The notes under the pieces were generated by a model. That model did not search any database. It was not told the origin of the DNA and saw only the letters and a list, made by a program, of their open reading frames with translations. A DNA stretch of 64,000 nt. Origin: Fuerstiella marisgermanici. GTDB lineage: Bacteria; Planctomycetota; Planctomycetia; Planctomycetales; Planctomycetaceae. The DNA lies in assembly GCF_001983935.1 (NCBI RefSeq), contig NZ_CP017641.1:7924001-7988000 (forward strand), written 5' to 3'. Positions 4,998 to 64,000 of this stretch are shown piece by piece. Both the position numbers and the translations under genes were made by a program. The first letter of the stretch is position 1, and every line of letters starts with the position of its first letter.

Positions 4998-7619
4998 ATG
5001 CATCGTATGCCTTCAATTGCCGTTGCGCTGATTCTTCTTGCGTCATCGCTTTGCGCTGCAGAACCGGCGCCGAAATTTGAAACTCACGTCCGCTTAATCC
5101 TGAAGACGCACTGCTTCCATTGCCACGGCGAAGAAGACGAAGTCGCCGGTGGGCTGGACGTTCGTTTGGCCCGCTTCATGAAAACAGGCGGTGATTCCGG
5201 CGCGGCGATTGTTGCGGGAAATCCGGAAGACAGCCTGCTGTTTCAGCGAGTTCGTGACGGAGAAATGCCGCCGGACGAAGGCAAGCAACTGTCTGAAGAA
5301 GAACTGAACGTTCTGCGCGAATGGATCGCTCACGGTGCCGAGACTGTGCGGCCGGAACCGGAATCGATCGATCCGAACGCCATGCTGATCACGGAAGAAG
5401 AGCGCTCTCATTGGGCATATCAGCCAGTCAATCGGCCCAGCCCGCCGACCGTCCAGCACAGCGAAATGGTGGCCAATCCAATCGACTCATTCTTGATGTC
5501 ACGGCTTGAATCCGAAGGCTTCACGTTTAGTCCTCGCGCTGCCTCGGAAGATTTGATTCGTCGTCTGTATTTGGATCTACACGGCCTGCCGCCGACGCCC
5601 GAACAGGTGGCGGCATTTGTCGCTGATTCCAGTCCCGAAGCGTGGGCAAAGCAGGTCAATGAGCTACTGGAATCGCCTCGCTATGGCGAACGATGGGCGC
5701 GGCACTGGCTGGATACCGCCGGCTATGCAGACAGCGAAGGCTACAACGACGTCGACTCTGAACGGCCACACGCGTGGCGGTATCGAGACTACGTGATTCG
5801 ATCCTTCAACGCCGACAAACCGTTTGATCAGTTCATCCGCGAACAACTCGCGGGCGACGAAATGGTGACTTCGCCACGCAACAATCTTTCTGAGAAGGAT
5901 GTTGAACTCCTGGTCGCAACTGGCTTCCTGCGAATGGCTCCGGACGGAACTGGCGGAGCGACTCCGGATGCGAAAGTGGCTCGCAACGACACTATTGCAG
6001 ACACGATTGCGATTGTCTCATCATCGCTGATGGGAATGACGGTCGCGTGTGCTCAATGCCACGACCATCGCTACGATCCAATTTCGCACGAAGATTACTA
6101 TCAGTTTCGAGCGATCTTTGAGCCGGCGTTCGATTGGCAGAAATGGCGGAACCCAGCTCAACGACGAATTTCACTGTACACTGACGCTGACCGAGCGGAA
6201 GCCGCGAAGGTCGAAGCGGAAGCGAAGGTGCTGGATGCCGCCCGGTCGAAGAAGCAGGCTGAGTTTATTGATGCGACGTTCGAGAAGCAGTTGGCCAAGC
6301 TGCCCTCCGAAATTCACGCTGCTGCTCGAGCCGCTCATAAGGTTGCAGCCAAGGATCGGACAGCCGAACAGAAGGCACTGTTCAAGAAGAATCCAAGTCT
6401 GAACGTTACGGCCGGTTCGTTGTACCTATACGACAGGAAGGCGGCAGACGAACTCGCGAAAATGGCGGCAGCCGCGAAAAAACTGCGAGCTACCAAACCC
6501 AAACAAGAATTCGTCCGAGCTCTCACCGAGGTCAATGGGCGGGTTCCGGTCTCGCATCTGTTCCATCGCGGTGATCATGAGCAACCTAAACAGGAATTGC
6601 TTCCCGCAGGTTTGACTGTGGTCTCTCAGACGGCTGAGTTGCCGGAAATCCCAGCAAACGTCGAGCAAATGCCTACGACTGGCCGTCGTCTTGCCCTTGC
6701 CGATCGACTAACGAACCCTCAGCATCCGCTTACGTCGCGAGCGCTTGTTAACCGCGTGTGGCTGCACCATTTTGGTCGCGGGTTGGTGACAACGCCGGCT
6801 GATTTCGGAATGCTGGGGCAGAAGCCCGAACACCCGGAATTGCTGGATTGGCTGGCCGCCGAATTTATGGACAGTGGCTGGAGTCTGAAGCATCTTCATC
6901 GACTGATTCTGACGTCCAATGCGTGGCAGCAACAACTGCGTGACAATTCCGAATTGGCAACTGCCGATCCCGATAACCAGTGGTATGGCGGTGCGAGACT
7001 GCTGCGTCTGGACGCCGAAGTCGTTCGTGATTCTATGCTCGCCATGTGCGGCAAACTGAATGACAGGGCTTTTGGTCCACCCGTGCCCGTGATGGCGGAT
7101 CGCGTCGGTAGGTTTGTGATTGGCAAAGAAAACCTAAACGCCGGTCGGCCCGGTCCGGAACTCGACCTGAAGGGGGAAGAGTTCCGACGCAGCATTTACA
7201 TTCAGGTGCGCCGCAGTCGGCCGCTGTCTGTTTTGGAATCGTTCGACCAGCCGGTCATGTCACCGAATTGCGATCTGCGCCGACCGTCCACCACGTCGAC
7301 GCAATCGCTGATGATGATGAACAGCGACCTGCTGCTTGAATACTCTCGCTATCTGGCCGAGCGACTGGAAGGCGAGGCCGGAAGTGACATGGCGGCGCAA
7401 GTGCAGTTGGCCTGGCAGCTGGTCTACACACGAATGCCCGAACCTTCTGAACAGCAATCTGCGCTGCAGTTCCTGAAGGATCAACAGGCTCATTTTGCAG
7501 CGATGCCTGCCTATCAGCCCAACGAAAAGAAGCCGCCTAAGTACACGGCTGCTCAGGAAGCATCGGCGTTGATGTGCCAGATGTTGCTTAGTTCCAACGA
7601 ATTTCTGTATGTCGACTGA
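4998..7619 (+). CDS. PSCyt1/DUF1549/DUF1553 cytochrome-like protein
   Basis: The protein has 873 residues from ATG 4998 (ATG 5007 is also possible), with a signal peptide ending near [10 protein letters not shown]-type haem motif, CFHCH, lies at about 38-42 in a PSCyt1 domain. DUF1549 follows ([24 protein letters not shown]). A second haem-type motif, CAQCH, lies near 352, just before [16 protein letters not shown]. After a helical middle region comes DUF1553 ([31 protein letters not shown]). Such proteins are hugely expanded in planctomycetes and are almost always paired with a DUF1501 gene, as here with a TGATGA overlap. The role is thought to be periplasmic electron transfer or sugar oxidation, but this is not established. 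Confidence 0.93.
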
Positions 7620-9079
7620 TGAACATGAATATCGAAAACCAAACGACCCACGAGTCGGCTCGTCGCCATTTCCTGGCCAGCAGCGCTATGAGCGTAAGTT
7701 CTGTTGCTCTGGCATGGATGTTCAACAACGAACGCGCGAACGCTGATTTTAAGAAGCCGATTGAGCAACCCGTCTTCGATGCCACACCGAAGACACCGAA
7801 GAGCGAACCGTCAGCAAAGGCAATGATTTCGCTATGGATGCAGGGCGGCCCAAGTCATCATGACATGTTCGACCCCAAGCCGGGTATGGCGAAGTACGAC
7901 GGCAAAGAATTCCCCGGCGACATCAAATATGACAACGCAGCTCAGGCCAGTTCCAAAGTCTTCGCATCACCATGGAAGTTTGCACCGCGTGGCGAATGTG
8001 GTATGGAACTGTCGGAACTGATTCCTCACACGGCAACGGTCGCCGACGACATTTGTCTGATCCGATCGACGAAGACCGGCGTCAACAATCATGGCCAGTC
8101 GATCCGAGCTCTACAAACCGGTCGCATTGTAGCTGGCCGGCCTGCTCTGGGCAGTTGGCTGACCTATGGCCTTGGCTGTGAAGCCGATAACCTGCCCGCG
8201 TTTTTGGCGCTAATTGATCCGGGGCAATTGCCGGTGCTTGGCGTGGAAAACTGGTCCAACGGCTGGCTCCCTTCCATCTATCAGGGAACCGTTGTCCGCC
8301 CGACAGAGCCACGCATTTTGGACCTCACACCGCCGCCGCACTTGAAGGGCAAGGCTCAAAAACGAGCTCTCGAATTCCTTGAGCAACTCAACGAACGGCA
8401 CATCGCGGACCGACCGGGACAGCTTGACCTTCAGGCACGAATCGCCAGCTATCAGCTCGCCGCAAAGATGCAGACGGCCGCGACCGAGGCGCTGGACCTG
8501 AGCGGCGAGACCAAGGCGACTCAGCAAATGTACGGCATCCACGAGAAGCCGACCGCGGAATATGGCAGCCGCTGTTTGATCGCTCGCCGTTTAATCGAAC
8601 GCGGCGTCCGCTTTGTGCAGGTCTACACGGCAAACCAGCTGTGGGACAGCCACGGCAGCATTCTGGGCCGCCTACCTGCGGCCTGTCAAAAGGTCGACAA
8701 ACCGTCCGCCGCGCTGGTGAAGGACCTCAAACAACGCGGACTGCTGGATTCTACCGTCGTCCACTGGGGCGGCGAAATGGGGCGTCTGCCCGTTGTGCAG
8801 AACGACGCGGGCCGCGCGAAGATCGGTCGCGACCATAATACTCACGGCTTCAGCATGTGGGTGGCTGGCGGCGGCTTCAAAGCCGGTCACGTCCACGGCA
8901 GCACGGACGAATGGGGCCACAAGGCGGTCGAAGATGTCGTCAATCACTTCGACTACCACGCGACACTGCTTCACCTGTTTGGGCTGGATCATAAAGAACT
9001 GATCTTCCGCCGCAGCAACCGCGATCAGACGCTGACAGATGGTCAGCCGGGCAAAGTTGTTCAGGGATTACTGGCGTAA
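7619..9079 (+). CDS. DUF1501 (sulfatase-fold-like) exported protein
   Basis: The 486-residue protein starts at an ATG that overlaps the previous stop by one base, so the two are translationally coupled. The N-terminus (ARRHFLASSAMSVSSVALAW) looks like a Tat signal peptide, and many DUF1501 proteins carry one. Conserved blocks include MISLWMQGGPSHHDMFDPK, GVNNHGQSIRALQTG, RFVQVYTANQLWDSHG, and WGGEMGR followed by GRDHNTHGF. These are the predicted metal-binding regions that place DUF1501 near the alkaline phosphatase/sulfatase superfamily. It is the usual partner of the PSD1 protein upstream; the joint substrate is unknown. A long palindromic element follows the stop within 10 bases and may end transcription. 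Confidence 0.93.
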   Translation: MNMNIENQTTHESARRHFLASSAMSVSSVALAWMFNNERANADFKKPIEQPVFDATPKTPKSEPSAKAMISLWMQGGPSHHDMFDPKPGMAKYDGKEFPGDIKYDNAAQASSKVFASPWKFAPRGECGMELSELIPHTATVADDICLIRSTKTGVNNHGQSIRALQTGRIVAGRPALGSWLTYGLGCEADNLPAFLALIDPGQLPVLGVENWSNGWLPSIYQGTVVRPTEPRILDLTPPPHLKGKAQKRALEFLEQLNERHIADRPGQLDLQARIASYQLAAKMQTAATEALDLSGETKATQQMYGIHEKPTAEYGSRCLIARRLIERGVRFVQVYTANQLWDSHGSILGRLPAACQKVDKPSAALVKDLKQRGLLDSTVVHWGGEMGRLPVVQNDAGRAKIGRDHNTHGFSMWVAGGGFKAGHVHGSTDEWGHKAVEDVVNHFDYHATLLHLFGLDHKELIFRRSNRDQTLTDGQPGKVVQGLLA

Positions 9080-9086
9080 GCCGGTC

Positions 9087-9227
9087 GTTTAACCCCAATA
9101 CCGTTCAATAATTGTCTCATCTCAATGAGCCGCAGGGCGTTAGCCCCGGTTTTCTCAGCATTTCTTGTCCTCATGGAACCGGGGCTAACGCCGCGCGACT
9201 AATTATTGAACGGTATTGGGGTTAAAC
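9087..9227. repeat. 141-bp nested palindromic element with GTTTAACCC ends
   Basis: The outer arms are a perfect 27-bp inverted repeat, 9087-9113 and 9201-9227, beginning GTTTAACCCC and ending GGGGTTAAAC. Inside is a second perfect 16-bp inverted repeat, 9136-9151 (GGCGTTAGCCCCGGTT) with 9177-9192. It follows the DUF1501 stop codon. The ends resemble those of three palindromes at 59605-60947. It fits a REP/MITE-like non-coding element, perhaps used as a bidirectional terminator. Confidence 0.8.
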
Positions 9228-9254
9228 GAATCACAAACGCTCGCTGTACCAACG

Positions 9255-9318: not shown

Positions 9319-9987
9319 CTAAACCGCCGGAATCGTGGCGCTGACGCCGTGGCTCCACGGGCCGGTGTCGCCTTTGGCGTTGGCCCATCGCAGCAGGTAG
9401 TGAGCCGTCTTGCCGCCGTCGTCTTCCTTGAAGGTCACCTTGTGAGGCGTGCGGGTAGCGACTCCGGCGAGGACGTAGTCGCTGGCGTTTGGAGCCGCGT
9501 CGCCGATGGCCACGTAGATCTGGCAAGAAGCCACTCCGTCCGGCTTGGCTCGGCGAGTCGGCGTGAGTGAATCGACATACGACACCATGTGTTCCAGTCG
9601 ATCGGTGGCGATGACCTGACACATCGGAGCCGACTTGGGAGTACTGGCCGGAGTGCGATGAGTTTTATGAACGGGCAGCCCGGCATCTCGGCGAGCTTCG
9701 TCCGTCACGTTTGGATTGGCCTGAACCAGTCGAGCCAGCATGCGAGCTTCCTCGGTCAGGACGCGGCGAGTTTCCTTTCTCTTTTCGACGGCTCCGCGAG
9801 CAATGTCGCGAGCGCGTTCGGCCGCTTCGTAGTCCTCATCCCATTGAGCGACCAGTTCGCTCAGCTTTGTGACCTGGGCTTCGGTCAATCCGTACAATTC
9901 CGGATTGGCCAGCAGGATCTTTGCCAGCGTCCGGATCCACAAACTGAATTTCCCTTCTGACGTGGGAACAAGAGATCGTTTTGCCAT
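9319..9987 (-). CDS. Planctomycete helical/fibronectin-like protein, 222 aa (paralogue of 63473 gene)
   Basis: No characterised family is recognised. Residues 1-100 are helical and charged (WDEDYEAAERARDIARGAVE; RMLARLVQANPNVTDEARRD). A Pro/Thr linker (THRTPASTPKSAP) follows at about 108-121. The last 90 residues are beta-rich and look like a fibronectin III-type module (VSYVDSLTPTRRAKPDGV; YLLRWANAKGDTGPWS). There is no signal peptide. The gene at 63473 encodes the same architecture with shared blocks such as QAN, ATDRLEH, TPTRRA+P and a Cys-containing strand. Both genes have an array of 21-bp repeats 160-200 bases upstream. The start is ATG 9987 with GAGAG upstream. It is flanked downstream by a terminator and a palindrome, so it is probably monocistronic. 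Function unknown. Confidence 0.8.
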   Translation of the reverse strand: MAKRSLVPTSEGKFSLWIRTLAKILLANPELYGLTEAQVTKLSELVAQWDEDYEAAERARDIARGAVEKRKETRRVLTEEARMLARLVQANPNVTDEARRDAGLPVHKTHRTPASTPKSAPMCQVIATDRLEHMVSYVDSLTPTRRAKPDGVASCQIYVAIGDAAPNASDYVLAGVATRTPHKVTFKEDDGGKTAHYLLRWANAKGDTGPWSHGVSATIPAV

Positions 9988-10184
9988 CGTTCAGCTCTCT
10001 ATTTGAAACCGCAATACAATTGCAGCCCACGTGAGCCGCACTGCACGGTTGATCGAGAGTACTTCTGCACACTTGCGGCCTTTCGGTTCTGCGATGGCTT
10101 CCAGTCAGCAAGTTGAGGCAAACAGCTCAGTTTGTCCGGTTTGCAACGGCTGTCCGGCTAGTTTGAGCGGGCAAACGTCGCGTT

Positions 10185-10278
10185 GAACATGTTCTCCGTC
10201 CGATTGAACATGTTCACTGGCGGTCAGAACATGTTCGGTGCTGCAGTGAACATGTCCAATGGTCTGCGGAACAGGTCA
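10185..10278. repeat. 21-bp phased array of GAACATGTTC palindromes
   Basis: AACATG or its variant begins at 10186, 10207, 10228, 10249 and, as AACAGG, at 10270, each exactly 21 bases apart. The first three carry the perfect 10-bp palindrome GAACATGTTC, the fourth has GAACATGTCC, and spacer sequence differs between units. Twenty-one bp is two helical turns, so the palindromes face the same side of the DNA. The array is 198 bases upstream of the minus-strand gene starting at 9987. In one plus frame it reads as heptads beginning NMF. The remaining sequence from 9988 to 10646 has no gene I can support. Confidence 0.85.
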
Positions 10279-59759: not shown

Positions 59760-60197
59760 GCGTAACCGTTCAAACACTCGCAAAGCCAGTGGCACCCGGC
59801 AATGCATTCGCAGTGGTGCGGTCACGCTCGATTAGAAACGCAGAGGTCGCGGAGACGCAGAGGGTCGCAGAGTTGGCCAGGGGCAGCATTTCCCTCTGCG
59901 GTCCTCTGCGTCTCTGCGCACTCCGCGTTAACCTGTTCTTACCCGCGTTCCGTCGACGTTCCCGCCACGCTGCCTAATCGCTTCAGCTTGCTATCGAAGA
60001 CGAATGGCCCAAACGACACGAGCGCCGGAGCGTCGCTTCGCTTGATCCGGCCTACTCAATCGCCGAAGTTTACACCTCTCCCCAGCGAAGCTGAGGGGGA
60101 GGTCGGACAAGCGAAGCAATGTCCGGGAGGGGGCCGCGCGAACGCAGAGCACCAGAACACAGATCGCTTCCCACGCACGATCAGCCCTTGCCCGATC

Positions 60198-60353: not shown

Positions 60354-60791
60354 GCGTAACCGTTCAAACACTGGCAAAGCCAGTGGCACCCGGCAACGCA
60401 TTCGCAGTGGTGCGGTCACGCTCGATTAGAAACGCAGAGGTCGCGGAGACGCAGAGGGTCGCAGAGTTGGCCAGGGGCAGCATTTCCCTCTGCGGTCCTC
60501 TGCGTCTCTGCGCACTCCGCGTTAAACTGTTCTTACCCGCGTTCCGTCGACGTTCCCGCCACGCTGCCTAATCGCTTCAGCTTGCTATCGAAGACGAATG
60601 GCCCAAACGACACGAGCGCCGGAGCGTCGCTTCGCTTGATCCGGCCTACTCAATCGCCGAAGTTTACACCTCTCCCCAGCGAAGCTGAGGGGGAGGTCGG
60701 ACAAGCGAAGCAATGTCCGGGAGGGGGCCGCGCGAACGCAGAGCACCAGAACACAGATCGCTTCCCACGCACGATCAGCCCTTGCCCGATC

Positions 60792-63047: not shown

Positions 63048-63310
63048 ATGCTCCCTATGTCGAACGTGGTTGAATAAACCGTCGCAGCGATGTCTGAAGC
63101 TTCGAACGTCGTGTTCGTCATGTCAAACGTCATGTTTCCGACTATCGCAGCCATGTTTGAACCTTCGAACGTGGTTGAATAAACCGTCGCAGCGATGTTC
63201 CTCATGTCGAACGTGGTTGAATTAACCTTCGCAGCGATGTTTGAAGCTTCAAACGTCGTGTTCGTCATGTCAAACCTCGCAGAATAGATCGCCGCAGCCG
63301 TGTTTTCGTC
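63046..63310. repeat. 21-bp-period array upstream of the second paralogue
   Basis: Units of 42 or 63 bp (2 or 3 times 21) start with CGATGT or CCATGT and end with TCGCAG. Inner blocks are GTCGAACGTGGTTGAAT and GTTTGAAGCTTCAAACGTC, the latter holding the palindrome TTTGAAGCTTCAAA. On the minus strand one open frame (62975-63379, TTG start) reads twelve heptads such as TTFEASN, IAATVYS and TTFDMRN. I do not call it as a gene. The array abuts the MITE-like element and ends 163 bases before the start of the 63473 gene. Confidence 0.85.
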
Positions 63311-63472: not shown

Positions 63473-64000
63473 ATGGTCGTTCGAAGCGGTACAAAAGCCC
63501 CAGCCGGTGAAACTGAGTTTCTCGCATGGGCCACGCAGTTTGTGAATCAGGTGGCCGGTCACCCTGATCTGTATCATCTGGAGGCGGATCGCATCCAGAA
63601 ACTGCAGACGGAACTGAGCGAATTCAATGGATCGATCAGTGATGCCATCTCAGCACGCGATGCGGCTCTGGCGGCAACTCGACACAAGAAAACTGTTCGC
63701 ACTCGTTTTGACAACGACATCCGAGTGGCCGTGCGAATGATCCAGGCCAACGATCAGGTCTCAGATGAGTCCTGCGAAGCGGCCGGTGTTCATGTCCACA
63801 AGTCGACTCGAACGCCAGTTGCCGTTCCGTCAACGTCTCCGGTTGGCTTTGTCATGGCGACCGATCGTCTGGAACACACGCTGTCCTACGCGAATTCGGC
63901 CACGCCAACTCGACGAGCTCGACCCGCCGGTGTGACCGGTTGCGAAGTGTATCTGTTCGTCGGCAACGACACGCCTCAGTCACCCAGCCGATACACGTTC
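63473..64000 (+). CDS. Planctomycete helical/fibronectin-like protein, partial (paralogue of 9319 gene)
   Basis: ATG 63473 follows AGGAG by 6 bases, and the frame is open to the window edge (176 codons, C-terminus missing). It shows the same architecture as the 9319-9987 product: a helical first 100 residues (TRFDNDIRVAVRMIQANDQV), a linker (HVHKSTRTPVAVPSTSP), then VMATDRLEHTLSYANS and ATPTRRARPAGVTGCEVYLF, which begin the fibronectin-like part. The paralogues match in the blocks HPDLY/NPELY, QAN, VHKS/THRTP, ATDRLEH and TPTRRA. Function unknown. Confidence 0.8.
   Translation, partial: MVVRSGTKAPAGETEFLAWATQFVNQVAGHPDLYHLEADRIQKLQTELSEFNGSISDAISARDAALAATRHKKTVRTRFDNDIRVAVRMIQANDQVSDESCEAAGVHVHKSTRTPVAVPSTSPVGFVMATDRLEHTLSYANSATPTRRARPAGVTGCEVYLFVGNDTPQSPSRYTF

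Follow-up and report, generated by a model that had tools for sequence, protein, structure and literature searches.

What does a row of short palindromes, spaced at a fixed 21 bp and lying upstream of a gene, do, and does it belong to that gene? The question arises in a 64,000-nucleotide stretch of the Fuerstiella marisgermanici chromosome (contig NZ_CP017641.1, positions 7,924,001 to 7,988,000; hereafter, the window), in which five such units had been noticed upstream of one of two paralogous genes. We find that these genes belong to a previously unnamed bacterial gene family of Planctomycetota, most copies of which have their own tandem array of 21-base units immediately 5' of the gene. The features on which the analysis is built are listed in Table 1.

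Table 1. Positions of family genes, arrays and array units in the window, and of arrays found away from the family in other loci.
Feature	Position	Strand	Remarks
Array 1	10171..10276		five 21-bp units, 184-289 bp upstream of gene 1
GAACATGTTC	10185..10194		exact
GAACATGTTC	10206..10215		exact
GAACATGTTC	10227..10236		exact
GAACATGTCC	10248..10257		1 mismatch
GAACAGGTCA	10269..10278		degenerate, in register, 3 mismatches; by reading
Family gene 1	9319..9987	-	222 aa; modelled as helical N-terminal region (helix 36-90) and C-terminal fibronectin type III domain
Family gene 2	63473..64000	+	paralogue, 43% identical to gene 1; cut at window end, complete in locus L006
Array 2	about 63055..63310		21/42-bp period, unit unlike array 1, upstream of gene 2; Tandem Repeats Finder 63145-63256, period 42
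Orphan 21-bp dyad arrays	L194:12871-13101, L196:1609-1818, L199:779-883, L210:16120-16266, L213:15234-15506		no family gene nearby

The claim of five units held for four of them: three exact copies of the dyad-symmetric core and one with a single mismatch start exactly 21 bp apart and are separated by 11-bp spacers that differ between units, whereas the fifth site is only loosely a unit. No other place in the 8.92-Mb genome has two copies of this core at a distance of 5-33 bp (reversed-pattern controls, 0), the lag-21 identity of array 1 (0.64 over 84 nt) exceeds that of all 1503 background 600-bp segments from the same genome, and its consensus dyad is significant (p<0.002). Tandem Repeats Finder at its default threshold does not report array 1, presumably because the spacers differ.

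The original prediction also held that the paralogue is preceded by an array of the same periodicity and that further family members would be as well, and on both counts the genome bears it out. Array 2 is reported by Tandem Repeats Finder, has a lag-42 identity of 0.68 and is built from a different unit. Besides a degraded copy containing stops (L008) and a small fragment (L009), the 8.9-Mb genome contains seven intact family members at dispersed loci on one contig, and an upstream array with a 21/42-bp period is present at all seven. Five of these arrays score above every one of the 1503 background segments, with p=0.0013 and p=0.023 for the remaining two (L004 and L003, respectively), and each is private in sequence, except in the recent duplicate pair L003/L004.

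Sampling within one phylum, we gathered 142 distinct family genes and fragments from Planctomycetota genomes and scored arrays for the 83 members, from many planctomycete genera, that were nearly complete and had 500 bp or more of upstream sequence, adopting a combined-lag score of at least 0.5 as an arbitrary threshold and taking gene starts as automatically assigned. An array lies directly 5' of 59 of these 83 members (a count to which related paralogues do not contribute independently), the best period being 21 in 54 and 20 in 5; only three members reach the threshold at any other best period, and the downstream flanks of members hold no period-20/21 array above 0.5. Period 20 replaces period 21 in L126, L132, L133 and L135 (genus g214), other members in those genomes having period 21. 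By this score, roughly one member in four lacks a detectable upstream array; the weak-period arrays of L003, L004, L005 and L006 also fall below the threshold, yet these are detected by the lag-21/42 test against their own genome. The link between family and array, complete in the genome of origin, is thus strongly supported, being the rule across the phylum rather than universal. A scan of all phyla, with tight peptide patterns only, recovered the family from Planctomycetota only.

For 74 arrays we examined the anatomy of the units, which number 5-17 per array and end 13-669 bp from the start codon. Compared with column-permuted controls, the consensus dyad was significant at p<0.01 in 32 of the 74 and at p<0.05 in 41 (about 55%), and it lay above p 0.05 in the other 33; the combination typical of operators, i.e., dyad-symmetric sites in helical phase upstream of a gene, was accordingly found in array 1 and in the 32 arrays with p<0.01, and not in the rest. 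The two dyads of a unit are of roughly equal strength in many arrays; there it is the whole unit that is symmetric and not one core, and there is often no single stereotyped site. Array 1, with its one strong core, is an exception. The arrangement seen by eye in array 1, in which the core is conserved and the spacer varies, was rejected as a general rule, being significant in only 6 of 61 arrays.

Dyad units could form hairpins, and several arrays finish 13-60 nt before the start codon, so we considered whether transcription of the array might yield a 5' leader RNA in which every unit folds into a small hairpin. Arrays do fold more stably than their column-shuffled versions, but equally on both strands: an earlier raw comparison of sense with antisense folding had given p=0.015 with the sense null applied to both strands, and with own-strand nulls no significant strand preference was found (p=0.12). 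Compensatory changes were absent from the dyad arrays (within-unit pairing of 2152, as against 2157 +/- 17 when right-hand letters were re-dealt), there was no G-U bias (G-T/A-C ratio of 1.22 at dyads and 1.20 elsewhere), a search for a hairpin register spanning the array was negative (combined p=0.33), and the arrays had no match in Rfam. Because compensatory pairing, G-U bias and strand bias are all lacking, symmetric DNA sites fit the arrays better than RNA hairpins, and the covariation, G-U, strand and anti-diagonal tests led us to reject hairpins, whether per unit or array-wide. We regard a leader RNA, third in order among the main alternatives, as quite improbable.

Nor is the array likely to be translated. 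Twenty-one nucleotides equal seven codons, and one frame is open through some arrays, which would suit an array lying within a gene for a protein of 7-residue repeats, but the period-20 arrays of genus g214 and the 20-bp units inside the L030/L040 arrays break that frame. These arrays exclude a translated 7-codon repeat, and we give it next to no credence. The reading with the best support is that the arrays are symmetric DNA sites lined up in helical phase: it accounts for the sharp peak at period 21, the common dyads and the lack of an RNA signature, although about half of the arrays have no significant dyad and some have period 20.

In a base-rate sample of 864 kb (400 kb of genome G341 and 464 kb of genome G000, the latter with the window), peaks at period 21 had roughly the frequency of those at 15, 18 or 24, and the eight that we inspected, including the strongest, all fell within long open frames and therefore reflect coding periodicity; no comparable intergenic array was recognised in this sample besides the window's own. 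In 793 kb of a related genome, G062, all eight family loci sampled have a 21-bp array, but five intergenic 21-bp arrays, all with dyads at p<=0.05, lie away from the family (the orphan arrays of Table 1), and for four of these a 22-bp array is found at a distance of about 400-600 bp. The same 793 kb contains about 25 intergenic period-22 tandem arrays (e.g., L208:8605-8890, L207:7717-8156 and L198:4464-4859) of 4-20 copies, mostly dyadless and not adjoining the family, which form a separate class. In G062, the link to the family is thus strong yet not exclusive. Members without arrays and arrays unrelated to the family, either of which would speak against the predicted association, therefore both occur, as exceptions and not as the rule.

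Comparison of close paralogues from the same genome delimits what is duplicated. The similar stretch runs from close to the array's outer end to about 40 nt past the stop codon, giving a shared block of array and gene of about 1.1 kb between unrelated flanks. For L003/L004, shared DNA extends from -385 to +725, with nothing in common in the remaining 1.1-1.5 kb on each side; L126/L133, L132/L133 and L056/L044 are much alike in this respect, some pairs having extra scattered repeats, and L122/L129 and L030/L040 have more downstream DNA in common. Because close paralogues resemble each other only in array and gene, the two travel as one cassette. Within this cassette the parts evolve at different rates: the unit is common to five of six pairs with more than 80% protein identity, to 45% of those at 60-80% and to few below 50%, which indicates that arrays turn over faster than proteins. 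In L127/L134 and L134/L137 (the gene of L137 being truncated), the proteins are 75-77% identical and the units unrelated.

Rapid turnover is what would be expected if the arrays were neutral or selfish tandem repeats, i.e., a bacterial satellite whose unit length is set by the mechanism generating it and which is co-duplicated with the cassette block. The persistence of arrays beside the truncated genes L016, L020 and L013 and the presence in G062 of orphan 21-bp arrays and many 22-bp arrays unrelated to the family also favor this alternative. Against it, most members, even those of distant genera, have kept an array on their 5' side, the period peaks sharply at 21 and consensus dyads are in excess, and no similar intergenic arrays were recognised in the 864 kb of G000 and G341 besides those of the window. 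In addition, we know of no mechanism that would fix unit length at 21 amid diverging sequences. A neutral satellite ranks first among the alternatives, and we consider it unlikely but worth serious attention.

The position of the array at the left edge of the paralogues' block of homology, with unrelated flanks beyond, could alternatively mark it as the end of a mobile cassette, a terminal recognition or recombination element with a role in moving or duplicating the cassette. The distribution of the family would agree with this: none of 16 sampled genomes of the same taxonomic family contains a homologue, making its presence patchy, and genomes that do have the family contain up to about 10 copies. 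Against mobility, private arrays that differ between copies are ill-suited to mobilisation by a common enzyme, we saw neither a transposase nor inverted ends or target duplications, and no relatives were found in phages, plasmids or viral contigs, for which reason we dropped an origin of the family in any of these. An element end, second in rank, seems improbable to us.

If the arrays are rows of DNA sites, the adjoining protein becomes of interest as a possible ligand. An AlphaFold2 model built from a 78-sequence alignment (pLDDT 94.9) has a short helix, a 55-residue helix (residues 36-90) and a C-terminal beta domain, and Foldseek matches this last domain only, as a beta-sandwich, to fibronectin type III (FN3) domains of known structure (probability 1.00, E-values down to about 3e-5). 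The top matches belong to animal proteins in the PDB and, within the viral library, to tail proteins of phages. Hydrophobicity along the long helix, averaged over the family, shows a maximum at a 3.5-residue period, which is that of a coiled-coil dimer, and the family protein is, as modelled, a coiled-coil-like long helix followed by an FN3 domain. Arginine or lysine is about 90% conserved at positions 70, 74, 82, 99 and 148 across the family. No known DNA-binding domain was recognised in the protein and no signal peptide was obvious by reading; a hypervariable region that might mark specificity was rejected, as entropy is roughly even along its length. At three loci (L051:1126-1818; L035:760-1464, minus strand; L212:11105-11800), a further gene lies upstream of a 42-bp array and family gene, and the second half of its product resembles the family N-terminal region, the first half being GIY-YIG-like by eye. 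A GIY-YIG nuclease fusion at L051 and L035, suggested by eye and by low-confidence secondary structure, was set aside, as Pfam was unsupportive and the model reached a pLDDT of only 46.

None of the gene-plus-array systems that we compared fits the family. Iterons of plasmid replication origins are direct repeats of about 17-22 bp beside rep that are bound by Rep, and they resemble the family arrays in having tandem, helically phased units of similar length adjoining the gene of a possibly cognate protein. However, the family arrays are chromosomal, occur in several dispersed copies per genome (seven loci on the one 8.9-Mb contig, with no origin features), have a private unit for each paralogue and frequently have dyads, and the adjoining gene encodes a helix and an FN3 domain with no Rep domain (no Pfam, NCBIfam or PHROG assignment). 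Operators of dimeric repressors may likewise comprise several dyad-symmetric sites on one helical face upstream of a gene, as do the family arrays, but the latter consist of 5-17 tandem units re-invented in each paralogue, beside a coiled-coil and FN3 protein in which no DNA-binding domain was recognised. CRISPR and other interspersed guide arrays also adjoin a protein family; the units here, however, are too short, whole units are repeated in most arrays in place of an invariant repeat with spacers derived from outside, an RNA signature is missing, and the proteins have no PADLOC match. RAYT transposases accompany REP/BIME palindromes. Like the palindromes of REP families (PMC3733652), the family arrays are palindromic repeats tied to a gene family, but they are tandem instead of scattered, private in sequence and strictly 21 bp in period, and no family protein matches a RAYT/Y1-type transposase. 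A structured-RNA leader fails on the pairing, G-U, strand and Rfam results given above. Altogether, searches of Rfam, Pfam, NCBIfam, PHROG and PADLOC matched no known RNA, protein or defence family, and literature searches returned no description of the association between this family and its arrays. Because no tested system fits (iteron/Rep, REP-RAYT, CRISPR-like or structured RNA) and the literature searches found none, we suggest that array and gene may represent a new kind of self-contained genetic cassette.

The explanation that we tentatively favor, at somewhat less than an even chance, is that each cassette consists of a private array of 21-bp-phased, often dyad-symmetric units followed by one coiled-coil and FN3 gene, and that the array acts at the level of DNA. 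The units would be candidate binding sites in a row, two helical turns apart (2 x 10.5 bp) and all facing the same side of the DNA, and a dimeric protein occupying them would control the downstream gene. The most economical candidate for this protein is the cassette's own product, which would make the system autoregulatory, with specificity re-tuned following each duplication; that the family protein, as a dimer, would be the binder is plausible. The unrelated units beside proteins that are 75-77% identical would demand fast evolution of specificity, although five of the six pairs above 80% identity share units. This counts against the favored explanation, as do the lack of any recognised DNA-binding domain, the arrays with no significant dyad or no single stereotyped site, the members with no detectable array and the orphan arrays of G062. 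We are doubtful of the stronger version, in which the cassettes are self-addressed, each dimeric product binding its own array and changing specificity along with it, to yield dozens of insulated pairs across the phylum.

Sites recognised by their sequence are usually conserved, and neutral repeats usually change in length over time; the maintenance, phylum-wide, of period 21 and a tendency to dyads while array sequence is replaced is therefore unusual. Were each protein to bind its own array only, the family would offer a natural collection of orthogonal DNA-binding pairs in which changes of specificity could be studied. If plain autoregulation is the mechanism, the cassette would be a fresh form of a known type of system, and if own-array binding does not occur, it would be a cassette of a new kind, calling for an account of how it spreads and how its arrays are homogenised.

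Other repeats occur beside family genes or elsewhere in the window. Between the gene at 7619-9079 and family gene 1, the window contains a near-perfect long inverted repeat (9091-9228; TAACCCCAATACCGTTCAATAATT ... AATTATTGAACGGTATTGGGGTTAA, with an inner GCGTTAGCCCCGGTT arm) that looks like a miniature palindromic element. Repeats with a 67-bp period lie 3' of the family gene in L002 and L006, two loci of the same genome, together with REP-like palindromes (GTCGGTACGCACCGAC in L002), and a 17-bp-period repeat (AGAGACGCAGAGGGTCGC) is found in the window at 59834-59872 and again, 594 bp away, at 60428-60466.
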